A DNA stretch of 64,000 bases, taken from the NCBI GenBank assembly GCA_021825295.1, contig JAKAHV010000008.1, positions 1 through 64,000 on the forward strand. The letters are read 5' to 3'. Of the stretch, positions 9,834 to 25,705 are shown piece after piece. Within the stretch, counting starts at the first letter, position 1, and every line of letters begins with the position of its first letter. The notes beneath the pieces are model-generated. The model saw nothing but the letters and a program-made list of their open reading frames with translations, made no database searches and was not told the DNA's origin. Source of the stretch: Nitrospirota bacterium. GTDB taxonomy: Bacteria; Nitrospirota; Thermodesulfovibrionia; Thermodesulfovibrionales; JdFR-88. Made by a program: the position numbers and the translations under genes.

Positions 9834-10787
9834 ATGAAGAGATTTTCATTTTCAGCCGGTTTATGTCTGTTTTTTTTAGTTTTTTTATCCGGAAGCGTGT
9901 GGGCGGAAATTATTAATTATCCCGGCGCCGTGGCTACTTACGCCAGGGGCGTCAACGGCTCCGGCGATGTTGCGGGGTATTACACCGATGGGACGGGCAC
10001 GCACGGGTTTCTGGATTCGGGGGGCAGCTTCACCTCAATTGACGCCCCCGGCGCGGAAAACACTTTGGTCACGGGCATAAACGGCGCCGGCGGCATGACC
10101 GGGTTTTACAGCGTTGGGTCAACGGATTACGGATTTGTCGATTCCGGCGGCAGCTTTACGTCATTCAGTGTTCCGGGGGCGGCCGATATGAGCGCCGGCG
10201 GCATCAACGACTCCGGTGAAATCGCGGGGACTTACGTTGACGGCGCTACTCACAGGTATACAGGCTTTCTTTACTACTTAGGCGGGAGCCTTACCCCGAT
10301 CAGTGTTCCGGGAGCCACGCTGACTAACGTAAACGGCATAAACAATGCCGGTGAAGTTGTGGGAACTTACCAGGACGCGGCGGGAGAACACGGGTTTATT
10401 TATGCCAACGGGTCATTTACCAGGATCGATGCCCCGGGCGCAAGCGGAGGCTTCACCGAAGCTATGGGCATAAATGACCTTGGCGAAATCGCGGGATTAT
10501 ACAGTGACGGTACTGCCTCATACGGGTTTACCGATATCGCGGGCAATTTCACCACCGTAGACCTGGACCACCTTTTAACCGCTGTTTATGGCCTGAACGA
10601 CTTCGGTGATACAGTGGGCACATTTGTTGATACCTCTTCGCCGGAGTGGCAATACCGCGGGTTTGAAGAGGGCACCGCGAGTCAGTCCGTGCCTGAGCCG
10701 CCCACTTTTCTCCTCCTGGGTGCGGCCTTAACGGGGATCGTCATAACGCGGAAGCTGCTTTTAACAAAACAAAGCGACCCGGCCTGA
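9834..10787 (+). CDS. secreted HAF-repeat protein with PEP-CTERM sorting signal
   Basis: 317 residues. It has a clear signal peptide (MKRFSFSAGLCLFFLVFLSG, cleavage near VWA-E). The body holds about seven degenerate repeats of roughly 38 residues built on GINDSGEIAGTYVDG and GSFTSIDAPGA, typical of HAF-type beta-propeller-like repeats. The C-terminus is VPEPPTFLLLGAALTGIVI followed by basic residues, a textbook PEP-CTERM tail, so it should be processed by exosortase and tied to exopolysaccharide export. No exosortase gene is in the window. The start follows AAAGGAGGGAGACGAG. The gene stands alone and ends in a good terminator. Confidence 0.9.
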   Translation: MKRFSFSAGLCLFFLVFLSGSVWAEIINYPGAVATYARGVNGSGDVAGYYTDGTGTHGFLDSGGSFTSIDAPGAENTLVTGINGAGGMTGFYSVGSTDYGFVDSGGSFTSFSVPGAADMSAGGINDSGEIAGTYVDGATHRYTGFLYYLGGSLTPISVPGATLTNVNGINNAGEVVGTYQDAAGEHGFIYANGSFTRIDAPGASGGFTEAMGINDLGEIAGLYSDGTASYGFTDIAGNFTTVDLDHLLTAVYGLNDFGDTVGTFVDTSSPEWQYRGFEEGTASQSVPEPPTFLLLGAALTGIVITRKLLLTKQSDPA

Positions 10788-10813
10788 AAATAGAGCCTTT
10801 TATTTCAGTGTTT

Positions 10814-10847
10814 ACAGAGGACCCGAATCCAGAACCGGGTCCTCTGT
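10814..10847 (+). terminator. rho-independent terminator after the PEP-CTERM gene
   Basis: ACAGAGGACCCG and CGGGTCCTCTGT form a 12-bp perfect stem with a 10-base loop, followed by TTTCC. It lies 27 bases past the stop codon. Confidence 0.8.
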
Positions 10848-10943
10848 TTCCAATATGCATCTCTCCGTGGAAAATCGCTTCCGCAACGGAAACTGATTAA
10901 GAAAGATAATTTTGGTATGCTTGACCCATCGGGCTTGAAATAA

Positions 10944-10970
10944 TGTGTACATTATTTTATTCTGTACACA
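10944..10970. promoter_or_regulatory. palindromic operator before the toxin-antitoxin pair
   Basis: TGTGTAC (10944-10950) and GTACACA (10964-10970) are exact inverted repeats with a 13-base A/T-rich centre, just before the SD AGGAGG at 10972. Antitoxins of this kind bind such palindromes in their own promoter, so this is a likely autoregulatory site. Confidence 0.6.
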
Positions 10971-10985
10971 TAGGAGGTGGCATCA

Positions 10986-11195
10986 ATGCAGACTGCGGAA
11001 AAGGTGCGCAAGCAGTTTCGTCTCGACCCGGGCAAGATACTCATGGTCAAAAGGATCACGCATGCTTCAACCGAAACTGAAGCAATCAACAGGGCCCTGG
11101 ACATGGTAATCGCAAATGACAAAATCCGGAAGGCGCTTGCGGCGGCGAAGGGCAAGGGCAAAATCGAGGACGTATTTGGCAGAGTATCCGCTTAA
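10986..11195 (+). CDS. VapB-like antitoxin
   Basis: 69 residues from an ATG eight bases after AGGAGG; a GTG three codons earlier overlaps the SD and is less likely. The TETEAINRALDMVIAND stretch is the helix pattern of a ribbon-helix-helix DNA-binding antitoxin. The C-terminal KGKIEDVFGRVSA would wrap the toxin. It overlaps the following PIN-domain gene, the usual antitoxin-first order, and a palindrome precedes it. The family is assigned by size, fold pattern and partner. Confidence 0.75.
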   Translation: MQTAEKVRKQFRLDPGKILMVKRITHASTETEAINRALDMVIANDKIRKALAAAKGKGKIEDVFGRVSA

Positions 11196-11616
11196 GGCCG
11201 TCTGCGATACCTCGATTTACATTCCTTTCATAAATCATGGAATAACGCATCCGGCGTTTTCCGAAAAGTCTTTCTCTCCGGTGTTGCACATGAGTGCGGT
11301 TGTCCTTTCGGAACTGTACGCGGGGGCGCACGACCGGCAGACAATCAGACTTCTGGATAAATTGCACCGGACTTTTCAGGACGCCGGGCGGCTTATTGTG
11401 CCTGACGGCAGTGATTGGCAACATACGGGCGCCATTATTGCCAGGCTCAGAACGAAATATGGTTTTGAGGCCAGATATCTCTCCCGGATACAAAATGACA
11501 TTCTTATTGCCTTTTCCGCGCGCAGGATCGGGGCGTTTGTCTTCACGCGTAACGAAAAGGACTTCCGGCGGATAAGGGAATTTATGGATTTTCATATCTA
11601 TGGGGGAAATAAATGA
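11176..11616 (+). CDS. VapC-like PIN-domain toxin
   Basis: 146 residues from a TTG with GAGGA five bases upstream; an ATG at 11116 lies deep inside the antitoxin gene and yields an Arg-rich head, so I rejected it. PIN acidic residues are visible: Asp in VCDTSIYIPF, Glu in LSELYAG, Asp in QNDILIAFSA and the final TRNEKDF. PIN toxins are Mg-dependent RNases, often cutting tRNA or rRNA. The gene overlaps the antitoxin by 20 bases, so translation is coupled. Confidence 0.8.
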   Translation: MAEYPLKAVCDTSIYIPFINHGITHPAFSEKSFSPVLHMSAVVLSELYAGAHDRQTIRLLDKLHRTFQDAGRLIVPDGSDWQHTGAIIARLRTKYGFEARYLSRIQNDILIAFSARRIGAFVFTRNEKDFRRIREFMDFHIYGGNK

Positions 11617-11826
11617 ATATCATCATGGATGTCCCTGTTTTCATGCTGATACTCTTCCCCTGCGCTATCCCGCCCGATGTATGCAATGCCGGTTGAAACA
11701 TGGCATCTTCAGCAGATTCTCGGTAAGCAACCTTACGTCCAGGAACTATGCGTAAGCGGATGCTAACAGTTGGCGCGTGTTATCCCCTCAACTCTGCTAC
11801 GAAATAGAAGCACCGTTATGGCAATT

Positions 11827-13164
11827 TCAGTTTGAATCATGCATTCCGGATGGATGAGTCGGCTGGCTGACCATTATAGGCAGCGATTCCAGCTTCGGGA
11901 TTCCCGCAACCCGTTCAAGCTGGGATTTATTGACGAGAAGATTCAATTTTGTGTTAATCATCTGGTCACGCGCATCAGCAAGCAGGGTTTCCGCCTGGAC
12001 AAGCGAAAGAATATCAGCCTCGCCTATTTTATATTCTCCAAACGCCAGCGAATAATTATGCTCCGCATTATGCAATTGATTCTTCGCTACAGTGAGATCC
12101 TCAATTGACGTTAAATAATTATCATAGGTCTTCTGAAGATCGAGCACAAGTTGCCGTTTTGTTTCGTCCAGTGTAGCTTCGGATGAAGTCGTTGAGATCG
12201 CAGCCGCCTTTTGTCGGAAAAACTTGCCCAGTTCGAAAATATTCCATTTGGCGGACAATCCCACGTATCTGTCTTCAGGGATGAGAACGATGCCGGGCGC
12301 GGCGCCAATCGATTTTACATAAGCGGCATCAGCAGATATTGTTGGCCAGAAGGCGCTTAACTCAAGAGATCTGTCGAACCGTGCAATCTTGACAGTATCT
12401 GCCGCCTGTTTTATTTCCGGCTTTCGGAGGACCGCCTTTCTCAGGCTTTCAATGGCTGGAAGTGTCGGGATAAAAGATAACGCTCCCTCAAGTGAAGGCT
12501 TCGCCTCAAGCGGCATCCCAATCAGAGAGTCCAGGTCAGCAAATGCCTGTCTTAATTCGCCGCGCGCGGCCACGACGTTATATTTCGCCTGTTCCAGCCG
12601 GACTGATGCCTGGAGCATATCAGAGAGTTTTACAATACCAAATTTATACCGTCCTTTTGCAACATCGTAGTCTCTTTGAGCATCGTCAAGCTGTAATTTT
12701 TTTGAATCGAGCGAAGCCTTCCCGGCGAGCACGGAATAAAACGCGACTTTTACATCGTATTCGAGGGCGATAAGCGTTTTCCGAAGGTTTTCCTTGTCGC
12801 TGTCTGAATTCAGAAGCGCAATGTTTCTGTTCGCTTGCCGCTTGCCGCCATCAAAAAGGATGTATGATAAGTCGAACTGATAGACCTGCGCGTTGTAATC
12901 TGGAAATTGATTGTAGTGCCGGTCATAAGACCCTGAAGCATCGAGGCTAGGCAGATATGGCCCAAGAGACGCTGTTGCCAGGGCTTTGGTTGCTCTTGCC
13001 TTCAGCATTGCCGCCCTATATGCAGGTAGTCTTTCCCTGGCCATGTTAATGGCTTCTCCAATGGTCAATGCATTTACCAGGTTAGGTAGTATTAAAAAAA
13101 TAACGCACAAGAGGAGCCAATATCTGCCCATGATCGCTCTCACGCTGAATACAGAAGGTTTCAT
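11827..13164 (-). CDS. TolC-family outer-membrane efflux protein (type I secretion)
   Basis: 445 residues. A signal peptide (YWLLLCVIFLILPNLVNA) precedes two TolC-type repeats starting LTIGEAINMARERLPAYRAA. Long helical segments rich in Ala, Gln and Lys (LQKTYDNYLTSIEDLTVAKNQ) form the periplasmic tunnel. It is the last gene of the minus-strand secretion operon, 26 bases after the HlyD gene, and should be the outer-membrane duct of the exporter. It was named by fold features and context; sequence in this family is diverse. Confidence 0.9.
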   Translation of the reverse strand: MKPSVFSVRAIMGRYWLLLCVIFLILPNLVNALTIGEAINMARERLPAYRAAMLKARATKALATASLGPYLPSLDASGSYDRHYNQFPDYNAQVYQFDLSYILFDGGKRQANRNIALLNSDSDKENLRKTLIALEYDVKVAFYSVLAGKASLDSKKLQLDDAQRDYDVAKGRYKFGIVKLSDMLQASVRLEQAKYNVVAARGELRQAFADLDSLIGMPLEAKPSLEGALSFIPTLPAIESLRKAVLRKPEIKQAADTVKIARFDRSLELSAFWPTISADAAYVKSIGAAPGIVLIPEDRYVGLSAKWNIFELGKFFRQKAAAISTTSSEATLDETKRQLVLDLQKTYDNYLTSIEDLTVAKNQLHNAEHNYSLAFGEYKIGEADILSLVQAETLLADARDQMINTKLNLLVNKSQLERVAGIPKLESLPIMVSQPTHPSGMHDSN

Positions 13165-13190
13165 GCTGACATATTTTTATTTGCGTCTCT

Positions 13191-14564
13191 CTATCTCTCG
13201 GTCAGGCTTTCTTTTTCGTATTTCTTGAACGGGGACAGAAAAAATTCAATAATCCTCCTTTTTCCCGTTTTTATTTCCACAGAGCAAGTCATGCCTGGCT
13301 CCAGAGGGACCAGCTTGCCATGCACAAGCATATGCGTTTTCTCCATGCTAACCTTTATTTTATAGACCAGCCCCTTTTTCTTGTCTTCAAAGGCATCAGG
13401 GCTTACCTGTTTGACCACTCCTTTGACTACTCCATACTTTTGAAAGGAAAAAGTATCCAGTTTGATCTTCGCCTGCTGTCCAGCCTTTACAAAACCAATG
13501 TCCTTATTCTCTACCGTGGCCTCCACAACCAGGGACGTCCCCTTTGGCACTATTGACGCAAGAGTTTGCGCCGTGGTCACGACGCCGCCTATTGTATGGA
13601 CTTTCAGCCCCTGCACGGTGCCTGAAACCGGAGAAACAAGCCTTTCAAGCTTGTACCGCTGCCGAGCTTTTATCATATCATCCTGGTACGTCAATATTTT
13701 ATTTTCGCTATCAACAATATCCCCGAGGATGTCTTTTTCACGACCGCGCTGCAAGGCAACAAGCATCTGTTTCGCCTCAAGCAGACTTTCCTTTGCCCGT
13801 GCAACTTCTTTTTTTTGGGCTTCATACTCTTGTTCGGCCGTAAAAAGCTCCTTTTGCTTCTCCAGATGCTCCATTTTGCTGATGTAATCGGCCTTGTATG
13901 CCGCGTTATAGGCTGATGCCTCCTGCCTCAATATCCAACGGGTTTTCAGGTATTGTTCAAGCGTGGCTTCGGCGCCTTGCAGAGCGTCCTTCCGTTGTTC
14001 GATTACCGCCTGTTGGGCCTCTTCTTTTGCATCGTATTCAGCCTTTTTGGTGTCGATCAGCCGCCGCTCCAGGGCCGGAACTTCTGGCGATATCTCTTTC
14101 CCATCGGGAATTCCTGGAAGATCGCTTTTTCTGCCCGTAAGCTCTTCGATCAGGCGCTGCTTGCCTGCGAGTTGGATCGCAAGGTCTTTGCTTGTGCTTT
14201 CAACGTCGGCTCTGTCCATTGTGGGGTCCATTTCGATTAGAAGCTGCCCTTTTTTTACCTGCTGGCCCTCGTAGATAAAGATGGCCCTGATAACTCCCGT
14301 ATCGAGTGGCTGGATTTCTTTGATCCTGCCGTCCGGGATTATTTTGCCCCTCGCCATGGCGACCTCATCCACCCGCCCGAAATATGCCCAGAGAAATGCT
14401 CCTATCAAAAGGATAAGCATTACCCAGATCAGGATTCTTTTGGCCGGCGACGGCGGAGTTTCCTCAATTTCGAGGGCGGGGGGCAGAAACTCATATTCGA
14501 GATTGTCCTGGGCGTATTTGCGCTTGATATCCTGAAGAAATTTCCTGATGGATGGCCGTTTCAT
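13191..14564 (-). CDS. HlyD-family periplasmic adaptor (type I secretion)
   Basis: 457 residues. One N-terminal membrane helix (ILIWVMLILLIGAFLWAYFG) follows a cytosolic stretch. Then come the half-lipoyl motif VDEVAMARGKIIPDG and EIQPLDTGVIRAIFIYEGQQ, a long coiled coil near residues 150-310, the second half-lipoyl LERLVSPVSGTVQGLKVHTI, and a beta-barrel C-terminus ending in GMTCSVEIKTGKRRIIEFF, the HlyD signature. It bridges the ABC exporter and the TolC-like duct. The ABC gene ends 16 bases upstream. Confidence 0.95.
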   Translation of the reverse strand: MKRPSIRKFLQDIKRKYAQDNLEYEFLPPALEIEETPPSPAKRILIWVMLILLIGAFLWAYFGRVDEVAMARGKIIPDGRIKEIQPLDTGVIRAIFIYEGQQVKKGQLLIEMDPTMDRADVESTSKDLAIQLAGKQRLIEELTGRKSDLPGIPDGKEISPEVPALERRLIDTKKAEYDAKEEAQQAVIEQRKDALQGAEATLEQYLKTRWILRQEASAYNAAYKADYISKMEHLEKQKELFTAEQEYEAQKKEVARAKESLLEAKQMLVALQRGREKDILGDIVDSENKILTYQDDMIKARQRYKLERLVSPVSGTVQGLKVHTIGGVVTTAQTLASIVPKGTSLVVEATVENKDIGFVKAGQQAKIKLDTFSFQKYGVVKGVVKQVSPDAFEDKKKGLVYKIKVSMEKTHMLVHGKLVPLEPGMTCSVEIKTGKRRIIEFFLSPFKKYEKESLTER

Positions 14565-14580
14565 TTACTTTTTACCGGCC

Positions 14581-16791
14581 TCATAATGCTCTTTGCTGCT
14601 GGCTATAAAGGTGATTATACAATCCCGGCCGGGCAAGCAGTTCATCGTGGCTTCCGTATTCCACCACCTGACCACGGTCGATTACGAGGATTTTGTGAGC
14701 GTCTCTCAAGGTCGATAGTCTGTGCGCTATGATAAGAACGGTCCTTCCCTCGCACATGCTTCTTAAATTACGCTGGATGATGCTTTCCGATTCATAATCC
14801 AATGCCGACGTAGCCTCATCGAAGATTAAAAGCCGGGGATTGGTCAGAAGGGCTCTTGCGATGGCGATGCGTTGCCTCTGGCCTCCGGAAAGCGCCGTAC
14901 CCTGTTCACCCACTACCGTATCGTATCCTTCCGGTAATTCCAGGATGAAATCATGGGCCCCGGCCAGCTCCGCCACCCTGACGACCTCGGACATCGGCGC
15001 GGATGGATAATGTATCGCTATATTGTCCCTGACACTCCCGTTAAACAGAAAATTCTCCTGAAGGACAACACCTATTTGCCGCCGCAACCACGCCGGATCG
15101 GCCAAGGCAATATCAACACCGTCTATAAGAATTCTTCCTCCTTCAGGGATATATAGCCTTTGAAGAAGCTTCGCCATGGTGCTCTTGCCGGAGCCGCTTC
15201 TGCCCACTATGCCCAAAACGGTGCCTGCCGGGACCGCAAGCGAAACATTTCTCAGGATTTCCGGGCCGTCCACCCGGTATCTGCACCGTACGCCCTCCAT
15301 CCGGATATGCCCTTTTACCGCGGGCAGCCTGGCCTTTGCCGGGTTCATGGCGGGTTCCGGCATCGCGTTGAAAATGTCACCAAGACGCTTGAGGGAGATG
15401 CCAACCTGCTGAAAATCCTGCCACATCTGTGTGAGTCTCATTACAGGATCGCTCACCCTTCCGGAGAGCATCTGGAAGGCGATAAGCTCACCAACAGTCA
15501 GCTTACCACCGATGACAAGGAGAGCGCCGTACCAGAGAATAACAAGATAGGATATCCTGTTTATCATCTGGCCCAGGGCGCTGCCTATGCCTGATATCTG
15601 GTAAGTCTTGAAGCTTGAAACAATGTATTTTGAGAAAAGCCCCTCCCATTTTTTCTGGGTCTCCGGCTCCAGGGCGAAGGATTTGACCGTCTGTACGCCC
15701 GCGACCGATTCCACCAGATAGGATTGCGCGTCCGCCCCCCGGCTGAACCGTTCGTCAAGATGATGCCGCAGCATGGGCCTGATTATCAGCGACAGGGCCG
15801 CGAAAAAAGGGAGGATAGCCAGCGCCACTAGGGTCAGGGGAACGCTGTAAAAAAACATCACCGCGACAAAAACAAATACAAACATGAGGTCCAGCATGAG
15901 GGTCAAAGGCGAGCCGGTCAAAAAACGGCGAATGGTCTCGAGTTCCCGCACTCTGGCGATCGTGTCACCAACGCGTCTTACTTCAAAGTACCGCAGCGGC
16001 AAGGCAAAAAGATGCCGGAAGAGTCTCGTCCCCAGATGCACATCAATGCGGTTTGTCGTGTGCGTAAAAACATATGTCCTCAGAATATTCAGGGCGGCCT
16101 CAAATAAAGTTATCGTTAAAAGTCCGATGGCAAGCACATCAAGTGTGGTAAGCCCATTATGGACAAGCACCTTGTCTATTACGACCTGGGTAAAAATCGG
16201 CGTGACGAGGGCAAATATCTGCAGCACCAGCGAGGCTATAAGGACATCATATAATGGCTTCCTATATTTCCAAAGAGAAGGCAAAAACCACTTAAGCCCG
16301 AATATCTCCTCTTTTTTTAAAAAGCCGCGCTGTGTAAACAGGACAAGATTGCCTGTCCAGATTTCGGAGAATTCCTCCAGTTTAAGAATGCGTGGCCGTT
16401 GCTCGCCGGGATGCATGACAAGGATTTTGGCCGGATCAGCCTTTGCCAGCACAATATAGGACAGCTTGTCCCGCGCTTCCTGGCCGTCCCAGGCCTTGAT
16501 CTCGGCAATAGCCGGAAGAGGAAGTTTTACCAGTCTCTCAAAAGAAAGATTTGCCGACTTTGTCTTAAAGCCAAGCTCCCTGCCCGCGCGGATGATGTCG
16601 CTTGCGGACATGCCGCCCTCCCCGATTGCAAATGTGTGCTTGATCTGGGCAGGGTCTGCCGCCACGCCGTGAAAACGCGCAATCATTATAAGGCAACTAA
16701 GACCAGTGTCGATCCCGCCGCAAGACCCATGAGCCTCGTTACGAGACTCGTGGTTACTATTTCCCTCTGTTTTATCCGTGCTCACTGCCAT
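14581..16791 (-). CDS. type I secretion ABC exporter with degenerate C39 domain (HlyB-like)
   Basis: 736 residues in the order C39-like domain (about 20-150), six-helix membrane domain (about 165-450), ATPase (about 490-730). The ATPase has Walker A GRSGSGKST, signature LSGGQRQR and Walker B LLIFDEATSALD. In C39 peptidases the catalytic Cys sits in a DCG motif; here the motif reads GIDTGLSCLIMIARFHG, with Thr in its place. So it should bind rather than cleave its cargo, as HlyB does for RTX proteins. This fits a cargo with a C-terminal secretion signal instead of a double-Gly leader. Confidence 0.95.
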   Translation of the reverse strand: MAVSTDKTEGNSNHESRNEAHGSCGGIDTGLSCLIMIARFHGVAADPAQIKHTFAIGEGGMSASDIIRAGRELGFKTKSANLSFERLVKLPLPAIAEIKAWDGQEARDKLSYIVLAKADPAKILVMHPGEQRPRILKLEEFSEIWTGNLVLFTQRGFLKKEEIFGLKWFLPSLWKYRKPLYDVLIASLVLQIFALVTPIFTQVVIDKVLVHNGLTTLDVLAIGLLTITLFEAALNILRTYVFTHTTNRIDVHLGTRLFRHLFALPLRYFEVRRVGDTIARVRELETIRRFLTGSPLTLMLDLMFVFVFVAVMFFYSVPLTLVALAILPFFAALSLIIRPMLRHHLDERFSRGADAQSYLVESVAGVQTVKSFALEPETQKKWEGLFSKYIVSSFKTYQISGIGSALGQMINRISYLVILWYGALLVIGGKLTVGELIAFQMLSGRVSDPVMRLTQMWQDFQQVGISLKRLGDIFNAMPEPAMNPAKARLPAVKGHIRMEGVRCRYRVDGPEILRNVSLAVPAGTVLGIVGRSGSGKSTMAKLLQRLYIPEGGRILIDGVDIALADPAWLRRQIGVVLQENFLFNGSVRDNIAIHYPSAPMSEVVRVAELAGAHDFILELPEGYDTVVGEQGTALSGGQRQRIAIARALLTNPRLLIFDEATSALDYESESIIQRNLRSMCEGRTVLIIAHRLSTLRDAHKILVIDRGQVVEYGSHDELLARPGLYNHLYSQQQRAL

Positions 16792-16801
16792 GTGAATAGT
16801 T

Positions 16802-17638
16802 TTAAATTATGGTGACGTTCCGAATATTAAGTCCCGGTTTTTCCCAGAAGCTGGCGGTGGCATATTTGCCGAACAGATCAGGAGGAATACAGGGTTTTTG
16901 CTCTATGTATTCGACTTTGTTATGTACTTTGTGCAACCCCGGCATCCCTATGCTACTGTCATAATCCGGCTCATCGTAAACGACATTGTCAAAGTCATGG
17001 GCAAATGGCGGTTCTCCCAGTTCAGTATAGAGCCGGTCAAGAGTGTGCCTGGGCTCTTTTGCCAGATGATCGTACGGCACAAGAATCAGCCGTTTAGCCT
17101 CTTTTCCAAACCAGGCCTCACGCAGAGCGCACCAAGCCAGGCCGATCAGGCCTGTATCGAAATTCATCAGCGTTTCAACACGGGAATAGATCGAAGCACC
17201 TGGCTGGAAATTAAATATGCGTGAAAGCTCCAAAGGATTACTGATAAGCATGCGCTCGATGCTGTTGATAATCCAACCGATTCCACGCACACAACAGATA
17301 ATGCGCGCTTGCGGGTATATTTCCCCAATCAATGAGGCTCGTCCGGTCCAGGTGCGGTTGGTGTCGAAGACAACGCCGTCCAGCGGAACATCGGCGTAAT
17401 ACGCATCAAAGATCCCTCGCAAGATAGCGGTTCTCCTAGCGTTGTCAAAGAACGGCTTGAATTCGCCTCCACACATTGGAGAATGAACAGCGCCGCACAA
17501 GGCGGCAACGGGGCTGGTCATGGCAGCGGTAAAACGAGGATTTTGACGCAACAACGCGCACAGAAGGGTTGAACCTGAACGAGGCAGGCCTGAGATTAAA
17601 TGAATTCGTGTGATCATGAGTTGACGGTATTCTGCCAT
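16802..17638 (-). CDS. sulfotransferase (RaxST/tyrosylprotein-sulfotransferase-like)
   Basis: 278 residues. The PAPS phosphosulfate loop SGLPRSGSTLLCALLRQNP is at residues 16-34. RIICCVRGIGWIINSIERM supplies the Arg/Ser pair that binds the 3'-phosphate, and VVFDTNRTWTGR lies between. Such enzymes move sulfate from PAPS to a hydroxyl. The pattern recalls RaxST and other bacterial protein sulfotransferases as I remember them. AAGGAAGGAC precedes the ATG. The gene sits between the presumed cargo gene and the exporter genes, which suggests it modifies the exported protein; that link is inferred. Confidence 0.85.
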   Translation of the reverse strand: MAEYRQLMITRIHLISGLPRSGSTLLCALLRQNPRFTAAMTSPVAALCGAVHSPMCGGEFKPFFDNARRTAILRGIFDAYYADVPLDGVVFDTNRTWTGRASLIGEIYPQARIICCVRGIGWIINSIERMLISNPLELSRIFNFQPGASIYSRVETLMNFDTGLIGLAWCALREAWFGKEAKRLILVPYDHLAKEPRHTLDRLYTELGEPPFAHDFDNVVYDEPDYDSSIGMPGLHKVHNKVEYIEQKPCIPPDLFGKYATASFWEKPGLNIRNVTII

Positions 17639-17721
17639 GTCCTTCCTTACGCCGGAACGCTTTGTTGTAGCATCGAGCCCACTGAAGCGGTCCGGATGCC
17701 TTATGCGTTAATTAACCAATT

Positions 17722-17755
17722 AACCAGCCCACCCCTTGGAAGGAGCGGGCTGGTT
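17722..17755 (-). terminator. intercistronic hairpin between cargo gene and sulfotransferase
   Basis: AACCAGCCC (17722-17730) and GGGCTGGTT (17747-17755) form a perfect 9-bp stem. On the minus strand it is followed by AATTGGTTAATT, a weak U-tract. It probably acts as a partial terminator or RNA stabiliser that makes more cargo than exporter. Confidence 0.5.
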
Positions 17756-17785
17756 CTGATGTTTCAGGAAAGAGGCCCTCTCCTT

Positions 17786-20068
17786 TCAATGATGATTGTT
17801 TACTGCTAGAACCGGAGTTTGCAGGAACGATTCCTGGGGTGCTAGTTCATGTGTTTGACCGGAGGGTCCTGAACCGAAACCAGCCATGGCCTGTATTAAT
17901 TGGTTAAGACCATTCCCAGACACATCCGCTCCCGCCGACTGTCCGGGCTCATAAAGCGACTGAATACCCGCGATGTCCGTCGCATCAAGCGTTTGATTAT
18001 TCGACGTCAATTCATAGCACATTATAGAGTTCGGGTCTGCGTCACAAGCCAGTCCCAAGGCATGGCCGATCTCATGGAGAAGTGTCTGGGACAATGAGGC
18101 ATCAGTCCCGGAATAAACTTGCTGTCCTGTGGAACTGGTGGTCAGTGCATCTTGGGAAGGGTCTTCCAGCCGGACGATTACACCTGGTTCGATCTTTTCC
18201 TCGTAGTCCCGCAAGCTGGTGAAGCCGACAATACCGCTATTGGTGGTATCGAAATCACCCCAGCCAATTCTTATGTCAGATTTCGAAGAGTCCGGGACTT
18301 CCTCGAAAGTGATGCCGGCCGCCGCTCCCCATGAAGCAAACGCCTGCTGCACGGCTGCCTCGTCGCTGCCGTTCATATAACTGCTGAAAGGCGAAGCCGA
18401 GGAGCCAGGATTGTCCGCCAGACTCCATGTAATAATCTTGCTATCCCATTTTGCGCCTTCTAGAACGGCAGAGCCTGCTCCCGGTGCTTGCGGCGCCATT
18501 GATGCCATAGCTTCAGCTTCATGCAGACCGGCCTCTGCGGCATTAGCTGCCGCGAAATCGCCAGTTGCAAAGTCTTGTCGGCTGATTGGTCCGATATTCT
18601 TACCAAGTGCTGCCTTGATAACCGCCTGATTGCCTGCTAAACCATATCCATATCCATATCCGCCATATCCGCCGGAAAAAGAAACGCTATAACCAACAAA
18701 ACTGCTACCGGTATAATCAATATATCCCCCGCTTGATCCAGTATCAAAATTATACCCATCATAGGTGACCGCAATATTTGCACCTGAAATGACATCATTA
18801 GTGCCGATGATATGCAACGTGTCACTCGCATTTGCATATATAGTATCATGGCTGCCGTAGACGTACACAGCGTCACCCGTGCCCAGATTTATGCCATTAC
18901 CGTTGCCGTACACATTGGCCTGGGCATTGTTGTTCACATAAACGCCTGTGCTCTGCCCGTTTGCCGTTGCGCCCCCAAATGCATCCTTGTTGGCGTACAC
19001 CGCGTCGTACGAATTATTGGTGTTGCCGATCATCGCTAAATCATCGGCTCCCGAGTAGATGGTATTGCCCCCGCCAAAGGCCTGCAAACTGTCACCCGTC
19101 CCCAGGTTGACCTGGTCGCCGTTGCCGTTTGCCCAGGCTTGGGAATTATCATCTAAGGTGATTTGCGCACTCGACGCGTTCACGTTATCCGCACTGCCAT
19201 TCGTTCCAGTTATGGTAACCTGCGCGTTGGCGCTTTCGGTAATGCTGTTTCCACCCTCGTTGACGGTCGCCGAGGCGCCGTTCGCAATATTTATGGCAGC
19301 ATTGATCAGGGTCAAGTTTGCACCTGTGCCCGTGACACTGGCGTTTTCTGTGCCATTGGCCGCAGTACTTGTCGTTTCGTCGAACTGAAGATTTCCAGAA
19401 GTAAATGCTTCGATGTTTACAGTCTGCGTCGTCGCATTAATCTGGATCGAATCGGCGGTATTCCCTGGATTATTTTCAGCAACCGTCACCACAGGATTAC
19501 CGTTAATATCGGTCGTTGAAGATACCGTCTGGTTATCCGACGTTTGAGTCATTGTTGTTGGCAAAATGTTACCCCAAGCTGGGGCCCAATGAGGTCCCCT
19601 TAGTCCCAAATCTTGAGGCACAGTAATACCGGCGGCGGTTAAAGCAGTATCAGCGGCGGAATTGGAATTAAGCGTTAACGGCGAATAGTTTAAGTTTTCA
19701 TTTGTGATTTGCTGCTCGGCTTCTTCAATTGCCGCCCATTGCGAGCTAAGATCAGCGCCAGATGCTACAGTTTCTGTTTGAAAACTAGGGTTCACTAAAT
19801 AACCGAGAGCATCACTCACTGTGGTATCTGCAAGCGACCCGGATGTGCATGCCAACGTTCCCCAATCTGTCGAGCTTCCTGATGCGCCTGAAGACAATTG
19901 AGAAAGTTGGCTACTAAGCACAGTCGGCCCATTTGCGGTAGGAGCACAAGTGGCAATAAATCGCTGCCCAGAAGAATTCGTATAAACCAAGGTCTCGTGA
20001 TACCAAGTGGTTCCCGTCCCTGGTATTTGCCCCAACGGCTCGAAGAAAATCTGAATGGATTCGCTCAT
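17786..20068 (-). CDS. large metzincin-like protein, presumed type I secretion cargo
   Basis: 760 residues, Asn/Gly/Thr/Ser-rich, no signal peptide, SD AAAGGAG seven bases from the ATG. Residues about 160-460 are repeats built on VNLGTGDSLQAFGGGNTIYS and GINLGTGDAVYVYGSHDTIY, like RTX or beta-roll cargo. A Gly/Tyr-rich run (SGGYGGYGYGYG) is near residue 470. Residues about 525-710 look like an M10 catalytic domain: HEIGHALGLAC from 665, Met-turn SIMCY, DIAGIQSLYEPG. The third zinc position is Cys675, not His. The tail LNQLIQAMAGFGSGPSGQT resembles C-termini of other type I cargo as I remember them. Proteolytic activity is unproven. Confidence 0.8.
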   Translation of the reverse strand: MSESIQIFFEPLGQIPGTGTTWYHETLVYTNSSGQRFIATCAPTANGPTVLSSQLSQLSSGASGSSTDWGTLACTSGSLADTTVSDALGYLVNPSFQTETVASGADLSSQWAAIEEAEQQITNENLNYSPLTLNSNSAADTALTAAGITVPQDLGLRGPHWAPAWGNILPTTMTQTSDNQTVSSTTDINGNPVVTVAENNPGNTADSIQINATTQTVNIEAFTSGNLQFDETTSTAANGTENASVTGTGANLTLINAAINIANGASATVNEGGNSITESANAQVTITGTNGSADNVNASSAQITLDDNSQAWANGNGDQVNLGTGDSLQAFGGGNTIYSGADDLAMIGNTNNSYDAVYANKDAFGGATANGQSTGVYVNNNAQANVYGNGNGINLGTGDAVYVYGSHDTIYANASDTLHIIGTNDVISGANIAVTYDGYNFDTGSSGGYIDYTGSSFVGYSVSFSGGYGGYGYGYGLAGNQAVIKAALGKNIGPISRQDFATGDFAAANAAEAGLHEAEAMASMAPQAPGAGSAVLEGAKWDSKIITWSLADNPGSSASPFSSYMNGSDEAAVQQAFASWGAAAGITFEEVPDSSKSDIRIGWGDFDTTNSGIVGFTSLRDYEEKIEPGVIVRLEDPSQDALTTSSTGQQVYSGTDASLSQTLLHEIGHALGLACDADPNSIMCYELTSNNQTLDATDIAGIQSLYEPGQSAGADVSGNGLNQLIQAMAGFGSGPSGQTHELAPQESFLQTPVLAVNNHH

Positions 20069-20092
20069 GTAATAGCTCCTTTCATGATCTAA

Positions 20093-20578
20093 TCACAGGC
20101 AGGCTCGTTGTATTGTGGCAGCTATCTTCTGCACAACACTGTAATCGTCAGCTCTGCGCGGACGCAAGACAACGTTAACACTTATTTTGCAAGCCAGCGT
20201 TGAAACGTACTGATCGATAGTCGCGAAAACAGCATATTTATTTGGATCCCTCTCTGGTAAATTAGGATTTGGTTGATGAGGATATACTTTAAATCCAGCG
20301 GCGCGGAGGATCGCTTCGGCTTCATCAAATGAACTACCATCTGGTATGTACTTGACTACTGTATCTGTTATTGAAACGCCAAACATGATCGCATGCTCAT
20401 CCGAAAGTTTCTTATAAGCCAAATCTATTGCAATCCTTAGTTGTTTTCCACGTGCTTCAATATCGCTCATATTTTCCCTCTGCCTTCGGTTTGAATTCCC
20501 TTGCGGCCACGCTGAAAATGCGATTCCTATCGTCGAGATTATTACAAAAATAGCCAAAGCTACTTTTTTTATATCCAT
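20093..20578 (-). CDS. small exported or membrane-anchored protein of unknown function
   Basis: 161 residues. An N-terminal helix (VALAIFVIISTIGIAFSA) acts as signal peptide or anchor. The rest is soluble alpha/beta with a motif EAILRAAGFKVYPHQPNPN and two Cys late in the protein that could pair outside the cytosol. SD AGGAG lies seven bases before the ATG. It is the first gene of the secretion operon, 24 bases ahead of the cargo gene, so it may help fold, hold or inhibit the cargo. I recognise no family. Confidence 0.65.
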   Translation of the reverse strand: MDIKKVALAIFVIISTIGIAFSAWPQGNSNRRQRENMSDIEARGKQLRIAIDLAYKKLSDEHAIMFGVSITDTVVKYIPDGSSFDEAEAILRAAGFKVYPHQPNPNLPERDPNKYAVFATIDQYVSTLACKISVNVVLRPRRADDYSVVQKIAATIQRACL

Positions 20579-20756
20579 ACGCTATCTCCTAATTCCCCCT
20601 CGCCGTGATATATGTCCAATCCTCACTAACTCAACTTTCAAGCTTAATCGCGATAAGCCTGACCAGCGTAACACTGGAAAAGCGTTCCGGGCGTCACTCG
20701 CCCTTCATCTCCGCGGCATAGTGATTCCTGGAGAGCGCCTACTCCAAAGGTAAATT
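20579..20756 (-). promoter_or_regulatory. structured 5' leader of the secretion operon, possible pseudoknot
   Basis: About 178 bases lie between the predicted transcription start and the first ATG. On the minus strand, TGGAG/CTCCA (20746-20729) makes a first hairpin. TCACT (20724-20720) can pair with the loop AGTGA of the hairpin GGGCG-AGTGA-CGCCC (20703-20689), a pseudoknot. CCAG/CTGG near 20666-20680 gives another hairpin. This layout suggests a riboswitch or protein-binding leader, but I could not match it to a known class. Confidence 0.45.
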
Positions 20757-20762
20757 TGACGT

Positions 20763-20792
20763 AGTATAAGAAGAAAAAAAAAAAATTGTCAA
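20763..20792 (-). promoter_or_regulatory. sigma-70-type promoter of the secretion operon
   Basis: Read on the minus strand: TTGACA (20792-20787), an 18-base spacer that is almost all T, then TATACT (20768-20763). Both boxes are near consensus. The poly-T spacer is unusual and may bend or weaken the promoter. Confidence 0.75.
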
Positions 20793-21385
20793 CCAAAAAT
20801 TGTGCTAAAATTTCTTCAAAATTACCGTTTTTCAAAGGTTTTTGTTATTTAATTTTTTACAAAACTTCAATTTTAGATCAACTTGTTCGCCTGTTGGTAG
20901 AGGACTATGTTGAACCTTTTTATATTCAACCGCTGTAATTAAACAGCTATGCGGATTTGCCAGGAGAGGCGCTTGAAAGCATGACGCTAACAGCAGCGAT
21001 GCGGCTTCAAAGTTATTCGCACCATGCTATAAGATGTCAAACAGGTGACCTCCGCGCTTCGAAACGCTATTCGCGCAAATACTCGCTCAGGCGCGTTACC
21101 TTGCCGTATTTCCAAATCCTGAGCATTGTCTTGTCCCCTGCGACCATGGCGTCCTCACCACCGGAGACGCCTATACAAAATACGAATTGAAACATGCGTT
21201 CTGCCAAATATCTGAAACAACCAAATTTCAGGGCATACTTTAGTATCCGCCGCTTCCCTCTCCCAGTGAGGAATGGAAGGGGTAATTTGAATCGGGCTTC
21301 GGCGGTCAAAGACGTTGATTTTAAAAAGTAATCCGCGCCGGACTTGCTCACGAAACCATATCAGCTTAGATGGTTTATCAACCAT
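20793..21385. other. 600-base A/T-rich spacer without a supported gene
   Basis: It separates the secretion operon promoter from the 3' end of the SNF2 gene. A GTTGAAC...CAACC hairpin lies near 20908-20930. A minus-strand frame at 21067-21351 (94 codons) ends in a plausible stretch, AGDKTMLRIWKYGKVTRL, but its first half is not protein-like and it matches nothing I know. It may be a gene remnant. Confidence 0.4.
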
Positions 21386-23620
21386 TTACTCAAGCAGGAA
21401 ACGGAAGTCCGCCCTGGTGATTGAAAACCCTTTGCCGCCCCGCCCCGAATCTTCCATGACCGCCTTGTATAGTTCCAGTTTCCTCTTTTTGAGCGCCATC
21501 ATTTTTTCCTCTATCGTGTGCCGCATGAGTATGCGGGTAATCGTGACGTTCTTTTTCTGCCCGATGCGATGGGCCCGGTCGGAGGCCTGGTTCTCCACGG
21601 CAGGGTTCCACCACGGGTCCAGATGAAACACATAGGACGCCTTCGTGAGGTTCAGGCCCTGCCCGCCGGCCTTCAGGCTCAGAAGAAACACGGACTGGCC
21701 TTCTTCCTGCTGGAACGTCTCGATGAGTTTTTTCCTCTTTGCCACTGGTGTTGAGCCGTCAAGCCTCAGAAATCTGATTTCATGTCTTTTGAGGTCATCC
21801 TCAAGCACGTCAAGGAAAGACGTAAACTGGGAAAACACCAATGCGCTGTGATTTTCTTCAAGGAGTTCCCGCAGGCCTTCGATCAAGAAGACGATCTTTG
21901 GCGACGGCTCCCTGAACTCGGGCAACAGGAGCCGCGGAGAGACGCAGATCTGTCTCAACTTGAGAATAGCAGTAAGCGCGATTATCTGGGCCTGCTGACG
22001 GGTTTTTGTGCTGTAGGCCTCGTCAATCGTCCTTTTAACCTGCTCCACCGTCTTTTTGTACAGGGCCTTCTGCTTGTCGGTGAGGTCAAGATAAACGTCG
22101 GTTTCGGTCTTGGGCGGAAGCTCCTTAAGTATCTTCTCCTTGGTCCTTCGAAGCACAAACGGCCTGGTCCGCCTGATAATCCTGTCCAGGGCCGGAGATG
22201 CTTCCCGCCTGATAAGAGGGCTGAACTCGTCGTAATCGCCCATCAGTCCGGGGACGGCAAGGTCGATTATCGAATAGTATTCGCCGACATGGTTTTCAAG
22301 GGGCGTCCCGGTCATGGCGAGTTTGAACCCGCTCTTTAACTGCCTGGCGGCGCCGGTTACATCGGCAAAGATGTTCTTTATGGCCTGCGCCTCGTCGAAG
22401 ACGATCACATCAAACCGGATGTCCCTGAGTTTTTCGATATCCCTGCGCAAAAGACCATAGGTCGTAAGCACAACATCATGCCCCTTGAAAGAAACTTTCC
22501 GGTCCTTGCCGGTATAGAAAACGGTTTTAAGCCCTGGATAAAATCTTTTCATCTCGTTTTCCCAGTTAAACAGAAGGCTGGTTGGCAGGACGACAAGGTG
22601 CGGGCGCTTTCCGTCTCCCGCCGGGCTTTTGACAAGCCCCTCCCTGACGGCGGCCAGAAGGCTGATGGCCTGGACGGTCTTTCCGAGCCCCATGTCGTCG
22701 GCCAGGCAGGCCCCGAACCTGTTTTCATATAAAAAGGAAAGCCAGTAATAACCCTCCTTCTGGTAGCGCCGGAGCCTGGCCTTCAGCTTTGACGGCAGAG
22801 GTCTTGCCTCCAGTCTTTCAAAGGCGGCAAGCCTGCCCATGATCCGTTCGTCTTCGGAGGGCAGTTTCACCTTCACGCCGAGCTTTCTAAGCGCGATCCA
22901 GTCCAGGATCTGGAGCCGCGGGACATTGACGACCTTTTTTTCTTTTTCGCGTGCGGCTTCCGTCCCGCCGGTTTTATACATGCCGGAAATTAGCCGGAAG
23001 ATTTTTTGGGAGTTTGCATCCATAATCCGGACATAGCCGTCCTCCTCGCCTGCCCCCCTGCCCGCCAGTATCCTTTGCCATGTCTCGTCATCTATAAGCT
23101 TGCCGTCGCAGCGGATCTCGGGTCTGATCTCGAACCAGTCGAGATTCGATTGCCTCGCCGCGTCAAAGGCGAATTCCCACGAGCTGAGCTTCACTGGCTT
23201 ATGCTCAAAAAAGAGTTCGATGCCCTCCGCTTTAAGCCTTTCATAGAGCGCCGGCAAGCCTTCGCTCATCTCCGCGGCGGGGACGGCCATCATGTCGTGC
23301 GACCTCATGCCCTTGAATATCTCCCATCCGAATATCCCGTAAGGTATCCTGTAAAGGGTAAGCTCTTTTTTCTTGTTGACCGGGGCGGTCAGCCACCGCA
23401 GTCCGTCGAGCAGCAACCGGCACTCATCGAGATTAAAAGCGGCAAGGTACCGTTTGAGCATCTCGGCCGCCTTTCGGCGAAACCGGCGTTTTCCGAATAC
23501 GGGGAACCTACTCAGGAAGACGCCAAGAAGGCATTGGAACTGGCAAAAAATATCACGATATGGTTCAGGGAAAAGTTGAAGTTTTAGCTTCGGCCTGTAG
23601 CAAGCTACAGGGAATTGCAA
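21386..23620 (-). CDS. SNF2-family helicase/ATPase, 5'-truncated
   Basis: 744 codons open. The motor is complete: motif I ADDMGLGKTVQA, motif II FDEAQAIKN, motif III MTGTPLENH, and helicase C-terminal motifs FSQFTSFLD, LRLDGST, SLKAGGQGLNLT and DRAHRIGQ. Bacterial relatives often carry a SWIM zinc finger and about 300 more residues in front. Here the first ~47 codons are the antisense of a HEPN remnant and of a palindromic repeat, and the apparent TTG start lies inside the repeat. True helicase sequence begins near 23480. It is probably a broken gene, though the motor could still be expressed. Confidence 0.85.
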   Translation of the reverse strand: MQFPVACYRPKLKLQLFPEPYRDIFCQFQCLLGVFLSRFPVFGKRRFRRKAAEMLKRYLAAFNLDECRLLLDGLRWLTAPVNKKKELTLYRIPYGIFGWEIFKGMRSHDMMAVPAAEMSEGLPALYERLKAEGIELFFEHKPVKLSSWEFAFDAARQSNLDWFEIRPEIRCDGKLIDDETWQRILAGRGAGEEDGYVRIMDANSQKIFRLISGMYKTGGTEAAREKEKKVVNVPRLQILDWIALRKLGVKVKLPSEDERIMGRLAAFERLEARPLPSKLKARLRRYQKEGYYWLSFLYENRFGACLADDMGLGKTVQAISLLAAVREGLVKSPAGDGKRPHLVVLPTSLLFNWENEMKRFYPGLKTVFYTGKDRKVSFKGHDVVLTTYGLLRRDIEKLRDIRFDVIVFDEAQAIKNIFADVTGAARQLKSGFKLAMTGTPLENHVGEYYSIIDLAVPGLMGDYDEFSPLIRREASPALDRIIRRTRPFVLRRTKEKILKELPPKTETDVYLDLTDKQKALYKKTVEQVKRTIDEAYSTKTRQQAQIIALTAILKLRQICVSPRLLLPEFREPSPKIVFLIEGLRELLEENHSALVFSQFTSFLDVLEDDLKRHEIRFLRLDGSTPVAKRKKLIETFQQEEGQSVFLLSLKAGGQGLNLTKASYVFHLDPWWNPAVENQASDRAHRIGQKKNVTITRILMRHTIEEKMMALKKRKLELYKAVMEDSGRGGKGFSITRADFRFLLE
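23489..23587 (+). pseudogene. C-terminal remnant of a HEPN-domain protein
   Basis: The plus strand reads FSEYGEPTQEDAKKALELAK, then NITIWFREKLKF and a TAG. The PT-x-EDA-x-x-AL-x-x-A pattern with a final aromatic/basic helix is typical of the last helix of HEPN domains, partners of minimal nucleotidyltransferases in toxin-antitoxin pairs. Upstream, the sequence becomes SNF2 coding on the other strand, so only this tail survived a rearrangement. Confidence 0.5.
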
Positions 23621-23629
23621 GTTAAAAAG
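23594..23629. repeat. 36-bp palindromic repeat, copy 1
   Basis: CCTGTAGCAAGCTACAGG (8-bp arms, AA centre) followed by GAATTGCAAGTTAAAAAG. A second copy with one mismatch lies at 37258-37293. Here it follows the HEPN remnant and overlaps the apparent SNF2 start. Confidence 0.85.
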
Positions 23630-23704
23630 CCAGTGTGCGAATTTTTGAAAAAACCTTCATTTTGGAAAGAAATTCTATTTCGTAGAGCCGGCGCTTTGTC
23701 TAAC

Positions 23705-25705
23705 CTACCATCTCCTGGTCAGGCTCGCGAAGAAGGCGTGGGCATGGCCGGACGTGTATTCGGGGTTCAGGCTGTTGACCGCGCTGTCAAAGTTGCTGAA
23801 GAAATAACTGAGCCCTATTTCCGTCTTCTCGCGCACGGCCCACCTGGCCTTTACGGAATAGACGGTCTCCTTTATGTCCAGGGTCGAAAAGACGGACAGG
23901 GGAAGCAGGGAGCCGTTTGCCGAAAAATCGTACTGGCTTGCCGGAGAGAACTGGCCGCTGGCGGAGAAGCGGTTCACCGCCGCCGTCAGACCAAGCCTTC
24001 TGACCGGCGAGTAGTTGGCGGAGACCGTGTAGTTATGCGATACGTCGGTGTAGGGCACATTCTGGTCCACCAGCGGCGCGCCCGCGGGGACTGCCGCCGT
24101 GTAAACCAGGTCCTGCCTCACCCTTGAGCGCCAGTAGGCATAGCCGGCCTCAAGCGTTATGTTCCGCCTGACCGGCAGCATGAGATTGCCGGCGAATTTG
24201 TCCCTTCGCACGTCCCTGTTCGTGGCGTTCGTGATGGCGGACGTGGATTCGTCGATTATCTGCAGGTTGTCCCTCGTCTCATGGGAAAGCTCATAACTGG
24301 CGAAGGCCGTGATGCCGCCCAGGAAGCTCCATGTGGCCGACAGGGTGCCGGAGTCGCCGTTGTTGGGCTCGTAGTTGTATGCCGGAGAGCCGTACCATTC
24401 GTGTTTGTATTCCCCCCTGATTTTCAGCGTCCGGACGGGGCGGTAATCCACGTTGAGCGAAGTCTTCGCGCTCCTGGTGGATGCGGGCAGCAGCCCGCCC
24501 AGCCAGTAGGTGTAGTTTTCGCGCCTTTCGTCGCTCCAGACGATCTGGCCGCTTGCCGTCAGATTGCAGGCAATCCGGTATCGCGCTATCCCCGTGACGG
24601 TGTCCGTCACCGAGGAGATGGGAGGCCGGATGGAGTTGATTGCGAAAGCGGGCGGCACCGGCTGGCCGAACTGGTTGTAGAGCCGCGTCAGAAATTCGGT
24701 CGCGCTCGCGTTGTCCTCGGAAAGCTCCTCGTGCCTGTACCTTGCCACCAGCATGAGCGGAGTGACCGGTATCACCCTTACCTCGGCGTTTCCAAAGAAA
24801 TAATCGGCGGCCGCCTGGCTGGTCTCATTCCTCCTTGAGACCTTCGACAGCGTGCCCATGGCATAAATCATCCCGGTATACGATGTGTGGATCCTGAAGG
24901 TGTCCGTATTGCCCTCGAATTCGGGTATCAGGTTATGGATCAGGAGCCCGTCCGTGTAATTGCAGCTGCCATTGCCGCAGCCCATTACGTTATTGTCGGC
25001 TGAAAACCTCTTGAACCCGTGGGAATAATCCATCTCCACCGGGCCGAGGTGGCCGTTCAGCCCCACCCTTATATCGGTCGTGCGCATGTCAACGGGCCTG
25101 TCCTCGGCGACCCTTTCGATATCGCCGGGGCTGGAGAAGGAGCCGGAGCCGCCAAGGAATATCTGCTGGATGTCTCCGGACTGCACCACGTTCATGCCCT
25201 GCAGATAAACATGAAAAGGATATTCGTGCGTCTTGAAGCGCAGGAAGACGCGGTTGATCCCCTCTCTTACCCCATAGTGGACACCGGAGTCGTACTGCCG
25301 CACCCCGAAATCCTGGCCCGGCGGATTGCCGATGAGGGTAATATTGGGCAGGTTATGGTAGAGACTGCTTCCCAGGAACCTGGAGAGGACCGTATCGCTG
25401 TAAGCGTAGCGCAAATCGGCGAAATAGTCCTTCGGATTCAGGACGTCAAGCTCCAGGTGCACACGGTTGGGGAAAGGAAAGGCGATGATCTCGCCTCCCG
25501 CGCCAAGGGAAGCCTCCGGGTAGCCGTAGGGCAGCGCGTAGCTGCCGCCGCTCAGATGGGCGTCAGTGAAACCTCCCCACAGACTGTATTCGGGGGCTAT
25601 CTTCGGGTATTTGTAGACCTGGTTGTCCGTTTCGTCCTGCGCGTAGGCCGCCGCGGCAAGCATAATGAGTATCACCGGCAGGAAAAGGGCTGTCCGCCAC
25701 CTCAC
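23705..25705 (-). CDS. MtrB/PioB-family outer-membrane beta-barrel porin
   Basis: 666 residues from a GTG whose TG overlaps the TGA of the upstream cytochrome; the signal peptide (LFLPVILIMLAAAAYA) then falls at the right place. The mature protein is a run of amphipathic beta strands rich in Tyr, Arg and Ser, with YAYSDTVLSRFLGSSLYHNL and the FKRFSADNNVMG region seen in MtrB-like proteins, and it ends in Arg-Trp. These porins hold a decahaem cytochrome in the outer membrane and make an electron conduit. The order cytochrome-porin with overlapping stop and start fits a porin-cytochrome complex. Confidence 0.88.
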   Translation of the reverse strand: MRWRTALFLPVILIMLAAAAYAQDETDNQVYKYPKIAPEYSLWGGFTDAHLSGGSYALPYGYPEASLGAGGEIIAFPFPNRVHLELDVLNPKDYFADLRYAYSDTVLSRFLGSSLYHNLPNITLIGNPPGQDFGVRQYDSGVHYGVREGINRVFLRFKTHEYPFHVYLQGMNVVQSGDIQQIFLGGSGSFSSPGDIERVAEDRPVDMRTTDIRVGLNGHLGPVEMDYSHGFKRFSADNNVMGCGNGSCNYTDGLLIHNLIPEFEGNTDTFRIHTSYTGMIYAMGTLSKVSRRNETSQAAADYFFGNAEVRVIPVTPLMLVARYRHEELSEDNASATEFLTRLYNQFGQPVPPAFAINSIRPPISSVTDTVTGIARYRIACNLTASGQIVWSDERRENYTYWLGGLLPASTRSAKTSLNVDYRPVRTLKIRGEYKHEWYGSPAYNYEPNNGDSGTLSATWSFLGGITAFASYELSHETRDNLQIIDESTSAITNATNRDVRRDKFAGNLMLPVRRNITLEAGYAYWRSRVRQDLVYTAAVPAGAPLVDQNVPYTDVSHNYTVSANYSPVRRLGLTAAVNRFSASGQFSPASQYDFSANGSLLPLSVFSTLDIKETVYSVKARWAVREKTEIGLSYFFSNFDSAVNSLNPEYTSGHAHAFFASLTRRW

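Follow-up and report, generated by a model that had tools for sequence, protein, structure and literature searches.

The window analysed here comprises 64,000 nucleotides, positions 1 to 64,000 of the forward strand of contig JAKAHV010000008.1, from the Nitrospirota bacterium assembly GCA_021825295.1. It contains a single minus-strand operon of six open reading frames (ORFs) at 20578-11827, with intergenic gaps of about 10-150 bp in the ORF listing. The operon encodes a small exported-looking protein, a 760-residue protein, a sulfotransferase (ST) and the ABC exporter, HlyD and TolC components of a type I secretion system (T1SS), and the ST may sulfate the 760-residue protein before its export. 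The preliminary description of this DNA had recognised the same six genes, and both their position on the minus strand and their assignment to families stand (Table 1). Labels beginning with L and G denote compared loci and genomes, respectively.

Table 1. Features of the operon and its upstream region in the window
Feature	Position	Strand	Evidence and remarks
Sigma-70-like promoter match	20763..20792	-	11/12 consensus bases, upstream of operon; consensus match only, with 16 such sites found versus 11.0 expected from shuffles of the region
161-aa exported-looking protein, N-terminal hydrophobic stretch	20093..20578	-	ORF listing
760-aa putative type I cargo: repeat-like N-terminal part, Gly/Tyr segment, M10 metzincin domain, QLIQAMA-type C-terminal end	17786..20068	-	PF00413 E 4.6e-16
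Gly/Tyr-rich segment SGGYGGYGYGYGLAG, cargo residues 465-479, candidate modification site	18632..18676	-	Sequence; conserved in Caballeronia
Metzincin zinc motif HEIGHALGLAC, cargo residues 665-675	18044..18076	-	Sequence
PAPS-type sulfotransferase, 278 aa, nearest solved relatives TPST1/2	16802..17638	-	PF13469 (Sulfotransfer_3) E 1.5e-12
HlyB-type ABC exporter, 736 aa, C39-like domain without catalytic Cys	14581..16791	-	TIGR01846 958 bits (cut-off 726)
HlyD-type periplasmic adaptor, 457 aa	13191..14564	-	TIGR01843 365 bits (cut-off 209)
TolC-type outer-membrane channel, 445 aa	11827..13164	-	OEP PF02321 E 2.5e-51

The 760-residue protein is the putative cargo of the T1SS. Its metalloprotease-like character, proposed in the preliminary description, is borne out by a Peptidase_M10 (PF00413) match to a C-terminal domain at residues 540-706, and the Gly/Tyr-rich segment reported near residue 470 is indeed present from residue 465. 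Like the M10 metzincins (matrixins), the domain carries an HExxHxxGxx motif and a Met-turn, with the first two histidines, the glutamate and the glycine of the zinc motif kept, but it has a cysteine at the third-ligand position, where histidine or aspartate is expected. No hydrophobic stretch was seen at the cargo N-terminus on inspection by eye, so no Sec signal is recognised. The C-terminal end follows the pattern QL[IVA]xAMA, which was found in 3 of 1020 mechanical ORFs longer than 300 aa, all three of them ST-linked and adjoining HlyB/HlyD genes.

With respect to the ST, a search with a profile built from ten STs returned TPST1 first (E 1e-9), TPST2 next and polyketide-linked STs behind them, with no carbohydrate sulfotransferase ahead of TPST. 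A fold search with an AlphaFold2 model of the window ST (pLDDT 84, pTM 0.81) also placed TPST2 first (E 1.1e-7, TM about 0.55), TPSTs occupying ranks 1-11. Across 137 cellular and viral STs, residues R20, R95, W97, R118, S126, E128, R153, D227 and H236 are invariant; R20 and S126 represent the Arg and Ser motifs with which TPST binds 3'-phosphoadenosine-5'-phosphosulfate (PAPS). A grouping of the enzyme with lipid or carbohydrate sulfotransferases, which the preliminary description regarded as fatal to the idea of protein modification, was therefore not observed: by profile and predicted fold its nearest relatives are protein-tyrosine sulfotransferases, with the 3-O-sulfotransferases close behind by fold. 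The window ST differs from TPST1 and TPST2 in being bacterial and presumably cytoplasmic, in sharing 15-17% identity with them, in not conserving the catalytic glutamate, and in having a C-terminal part, with the invariant D227 and H236, that falls outside the TPST match.

The export genes resemble the HlyB/HlyD/TolC systems that secrete large proteins with C-terminal signals: all three components are encoded, the exporter has a C39-like domain in which, by comparison with C39, the DCG cysteine is replaced and the catalytic cysteine is thus missing, and the cargo has no recognised Sec signal. The TolC-type channel scores 148 bits against NCBIfam TIGR01844, under the cut-off of 225. The operon departs from those systems in that no canonical array of RTX nonapeptides could be recognised in the cargo and in that a sulfotransferase is encoded among the export genes.

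The raxX-raxSTAB genes of Xanthomonas provide a precedent for this last feature. According to two papers (PMC6637879, PMC4216712), a sulfotransferase that uses PAPS as donor is encoded there with a type I exporter and the sulfated product leaves the cell; RaxX is a precursor of 60 residues whose double-glycine leader is cut by the C39 domain of RaxB. The window likewise has a PAPS-type ST encoded with type I exporter genes. The logic of the RaxSTAB analogy drawn in the preliminary description thus holds, but not the export route, which is unlike the leader-cleaving one of RaxB because the exporter is of HlyB type with a degenerate C39 domain. The operon differs further in its 760-aa metzincin-bearing protein and in having TolC within it. 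Among its ORFs of at least 60 aa no RaxX-like short ORF with a double-glycine leader was noticed, although short ORFs were not searched systematically. The spacing from Arg-11 to Ser-118 of RaxST, known from the published residue numbers only (PMC6637879), is 107, as in most of the ST family, and 106 in the window ST. The same source (Liu et al. 2019, PMC6637879) describes raxST homologues of about 40% identity in Proteobacteria and Cyanobacteria, mostly without raxA or raxB. In a family search around G733, 112 of 234 genomes had the ST. Of the loci found, 20 were read; most have a LacI/TonB/major facilitator superfamily (MFS) or an ESPR context, and none shows a recognisable raxA/raxB arrangement.

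The gene set is conserved in a second phylum. A Caballeronia plasmid carries, in this order, genes for an M10 cargo, an ST, an adenosine 5'-phosphosulfate (APS) kinase, and the ABC, HlyD and TolC proteins, the ST being 69% and the ABC protein 55% identical to those of the window. Since the set recurs in this way, its occurrence in the window is more than chance. The APS kinase gene, placed between the ST and the exporter, would supply the co-substrate of the ST. In their C-terminal parts the two cargoes are 51% identical over a stretch of 284 residues that takes in the Gly/Tyr segment, kept in Caballeronia as SGGYGFYGGYGFAG; the N-terminal repeats have diverged and align poorly. At the third-ligand position the Caballeronia cargo has aspartate (HEIGHAFGLAD). 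An ORF resembling formylglycine-generating enzymes lies upstream of the Caballeronia cargo region, which is interrupted (L038 7575-14872; L156). A contig of a second Nitrospirae metagenome-assembled genome (MAG) also carries the operon, but it was rejected as independent evidence, its DNA being 99.93% identical over 9515 bp with a non-operon flank included; it is probably from the same population as the window.

Members of the ST family are thinly scattered among genomes and have spread laterally. At E 1e-20 the family was detected in 2 of 246 Nitrospirota genomes, that of the window, which has one ST copy and an APS kinase elsewhere, and that of L082, in which the ST precedes a DUF4347 protein. 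On GTDB contigs the relatives are mainly from Alphaproteobacteria (40-49% identity), and plasmid records with relatives are those of Caballeronia (69%), Nostoc, Acetobacter, Komagataeibacter and Geminocystis. Contexts were read from mechanical ORFs, and Pfam was run on a sample of neighbours. DUF4347 was present in all six ST neighbours tested for it (L050, L071, L073, L076, L079, L082) and ESPR type V signals in both of those tested (L148, L151); two Gly-rich neighbours (L008, L054) had no Pfam family match. Other neighbours were called from their N-termini, as ESPR type in L146, L149, L152 and L153 and as DUF4347 type in L074, L075 and L077. In Nostoc the ST gene follows that of an RTX protein and precedes that of an APS kinase, and in G1198 an APS kinase or ATP sulfurylase adjoins the ST. 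In L050, L075 and L079, the ST and its DUF4347 giant are preceded by three ORFs of tail-collar-like character (MDPFIGEIR type).

Homologous STs are thus linked elsewhere to large exported cargo, and one of these loci combines the ST with the M10 cargo and exporter seen in the window. A lack of such linkage, which the preliminary description named as evidence against its idea, was therefore not observed. That description had in mind a cargo of type I secretion; ST-linked T1SS cargo does occur, and the pattern is wider, since it includes type V adhesins, DUF4347 giants and phage tail loci.

Neighbour counts point in the same direction. Under a fixed mechanical rule, which is loose and misses the window's own cargo, a cargo-like ORF lies within 1.5 kb in 25 of 62 ST loci, but at 45 of the 400 positions taken from 20 control regions. 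In an even sample of Pseudomonadota, 7 of 12 close ST loci (one of them, L074, cut by the end of the stretch) are immediately followed by a giant of DUF4347 or LEPR type (about 1200 aa or more), and none of 20 control regions has such an ORF (Fisher p 2e-4, with a criterion chosen after looking at the loci). Neighbourhood context follows the ST tree: when the contexts of 57 STs are classified by hand from listings, 6 changes are needed versus a shuffled mean of 22.8, in a tree whose bootstrap is not settled and with a strength that the shuffle overstates because close relatives share context by descent. The window ST pairs with the Caballeronia ST with 100/97 support.

Viral contigs (IMG/VR), in which the ST family is common, provided 453 confirmed ST relatives, from which 80 were kept (L157-L236); many of the viral loci are near-duplicates. 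Up to two neighbours on each side were listed for these loci and nine loci were printed further; ten neighbours were compared with Pfam, and nine proteins, including the window ST, with PHROGs. In those phage loci that were sampled, the ST has tail-fibre or collagen-like genes next to it, for instance those of the collagen-like tail proteins of L164 and L186 (Pfam, PHROGs); a regular-expression search of the viral loci gave no collagen-like neighbour, and its result was not used. A YadA-head protein is encoded beside the ST in L207 and an APS-kinase-like protein was identified in L217. Sequence patterns revealed a P-loop kinase within two ORFs of the ST in 21 of the 80 loci, and one such neighbour matches the APS kinase model with 37 bits.

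The region around the operon, window positions 10000-24000, is likely a variable island: its G+C content is 0.47-0.54 versus 0.55-0.61 in the flanks, and the SNF2 helicase adjoining the operon was matched in one of seven relatives tested. The 161-aa protein had no match in Pfam and NCBIfam scans and no relative in the compared loci. A PEP-CTERM protein with a HAF repeat match is encoded just beyond the operon (window 9834-10787, plus strand).

Taken as a whole, the operon is read here, with a probability barely above even, as a self-contained unit for modification and export, in which the ST sulfates the metzincin cargo before its export by HlyB/HlyD/TolC. A cytoplasmic, PAPS-dependent ST related to RaxST-like and TPST enzymes would sulfate the 760-aa cargo, most likely on tyrosine; the best candidate site is the Gly/Tyr segment that begins at residue 465. 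The exporter would then secrete the sulfated cargo by means of a C-terminal signal and with no leader cleavage, so that the sulfate would end up outside the cell, where it may alter binding by the cargo. Cargo sulfation is the best reading because the factor shared across ST loci is the cargo and not the exporter, which may belong to a T1SS or a type V system or accompany DUF4347 giants. The proposal of sulfation before export made in the preliminary description is partly supported, by the linkage of STs to large exported proteins and by the TPST match; that the cargo is the substrate, tyrosine the acceptor, export the later step and the role an external one are points that we infer. More tentatively, and with somewhat less than an even chance of being right, RaxST-like STs of bacteria and phages may in general act in the cytoplasm on giant proteins destined for secretion, the cell surface or phage tails, modifying them ahead of assembly or of export by any route, in a widespread and overlooked practice of which the window would show the type I metalloprotease form.

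Several observations weigh against the sulfation of a large cargo. The cargo region is split in both Caballeronia strains, SBC1 and SBC2, by an IS110-type insertion sequence recognised by eye, which separates ORFs of 677 aa and 856 aa, apparently two parts of one gene; this copy is therefore perhaps dead and shows conserved arrangement, not present function. No independent, intact second M10-ST-T1SS operon was found in the genomes and plasmid records compared. A tyrosine motif common to all cargo classes was sought and rejected, as contexts differ by class and none is shared. The Acetobacter and Komagataeibacter plasmids read and several other members have no giant neighbour. The same is true of a group with MFS, TonB receptor and LacI genes (11 tree rows): in L134-L142 and L144 the ST lies beside LacI-type regulators, most of these loci also having TonB receptor and MFS genes and none a giant protein, and in L138 it adjoins an ATP sulfurylase-APS kinase fusion. 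The remaining adverse points favour a different substrate, namely a glycan on the cargo or the cell surface (O-glycan, lipopolysaccharide or capsule), the ST adjoining surface proteins since both serve the envelope. The catalytic glutamate of TPST aligns with T41 in the window ST and is mostly serine or threonine in its relatives, 3-O-sulfotransferases appear from rank 13 in the fold search, and a family scan gave a weak NoeE match (E 2e-4). By sequence patterns, a NodU/CmcH-type carbamoyltransferase lies within two ORFs of the ST in 22 of the 80 viral relatives, and sampled viral loci with this enzyme also hold glycosyltransferases (L169) or a 2-oxoglutarate-Fe(II) oxygenase (L181). Glycan sulfation fits these viral neighbourhoods and is thus a serious rival, but an unlikely one on the whole: TPST leads the profile search ahead of any carbohydrate sulfotransferase, and no glycosyltransferase was noted among the listed ORFs beside the ST in the window, Caballeronia or the DUF4347/ESPR loci examined, where a minority of the neighbours was scanned with Pfam.

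Two other explanations are considerably less probable than glycan sulfation. The ST could modify a small molecule or a peptide that leaves through the T1SS, as RaxX does, the large protein being a separate passenger. Besides the RaxSTAB precedent (PMC6637879), such a role is suggested by a locus of a Candidatus Solibacter MAG (L007 9974-19053), possibly a sulfated-peptide locus, in which an ST relative is followed by LanC-like and HlyD-like proteins and by two proteins of ABC type, one of which contains a C39 peptidase domain. In the window, however, the C39-like domain of the exporter lacks the catalytic cysteine and no RaxX-like ORF was noticed in the non-systematic inspection mentioned above, and many loci unrelated to one another have a large protein next to the ST; a small substrate is accordingly given little credence. 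It is just as improbable that the ST is simply carried along on an island that moved laterally, unrelated to the cargo and without action on it. The lower G+C of the island, the presence of the ST in only two Nitrospirota genomes and its occurrence in other contexts would agree with a passenger, but the gap between the ST and ABC genes is 10 bp, the gene order is common to the window and Caballeronia, and the tree joins the M10-linked STs as a single pair with support.

RaxX is the sole case of bacterial protein sulfation in the literature found, and a linkage of STs to giant secreted proteins is not described in the literature searched, a partial collection that most subscription journals lie outside. 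The occurrence of ST relatives beside giant secreted or virion surface proteins in many bacteria and phages suggests a little-noticed sulfation of such proteins, or of their load, before exit. Should STs of this family act on the giants that adjoin them, environmental bacteria and phages would commonly make adhesins, proteases and phage tail proteins in sulfated form, a question that small gene sets would make open to immediate testing.

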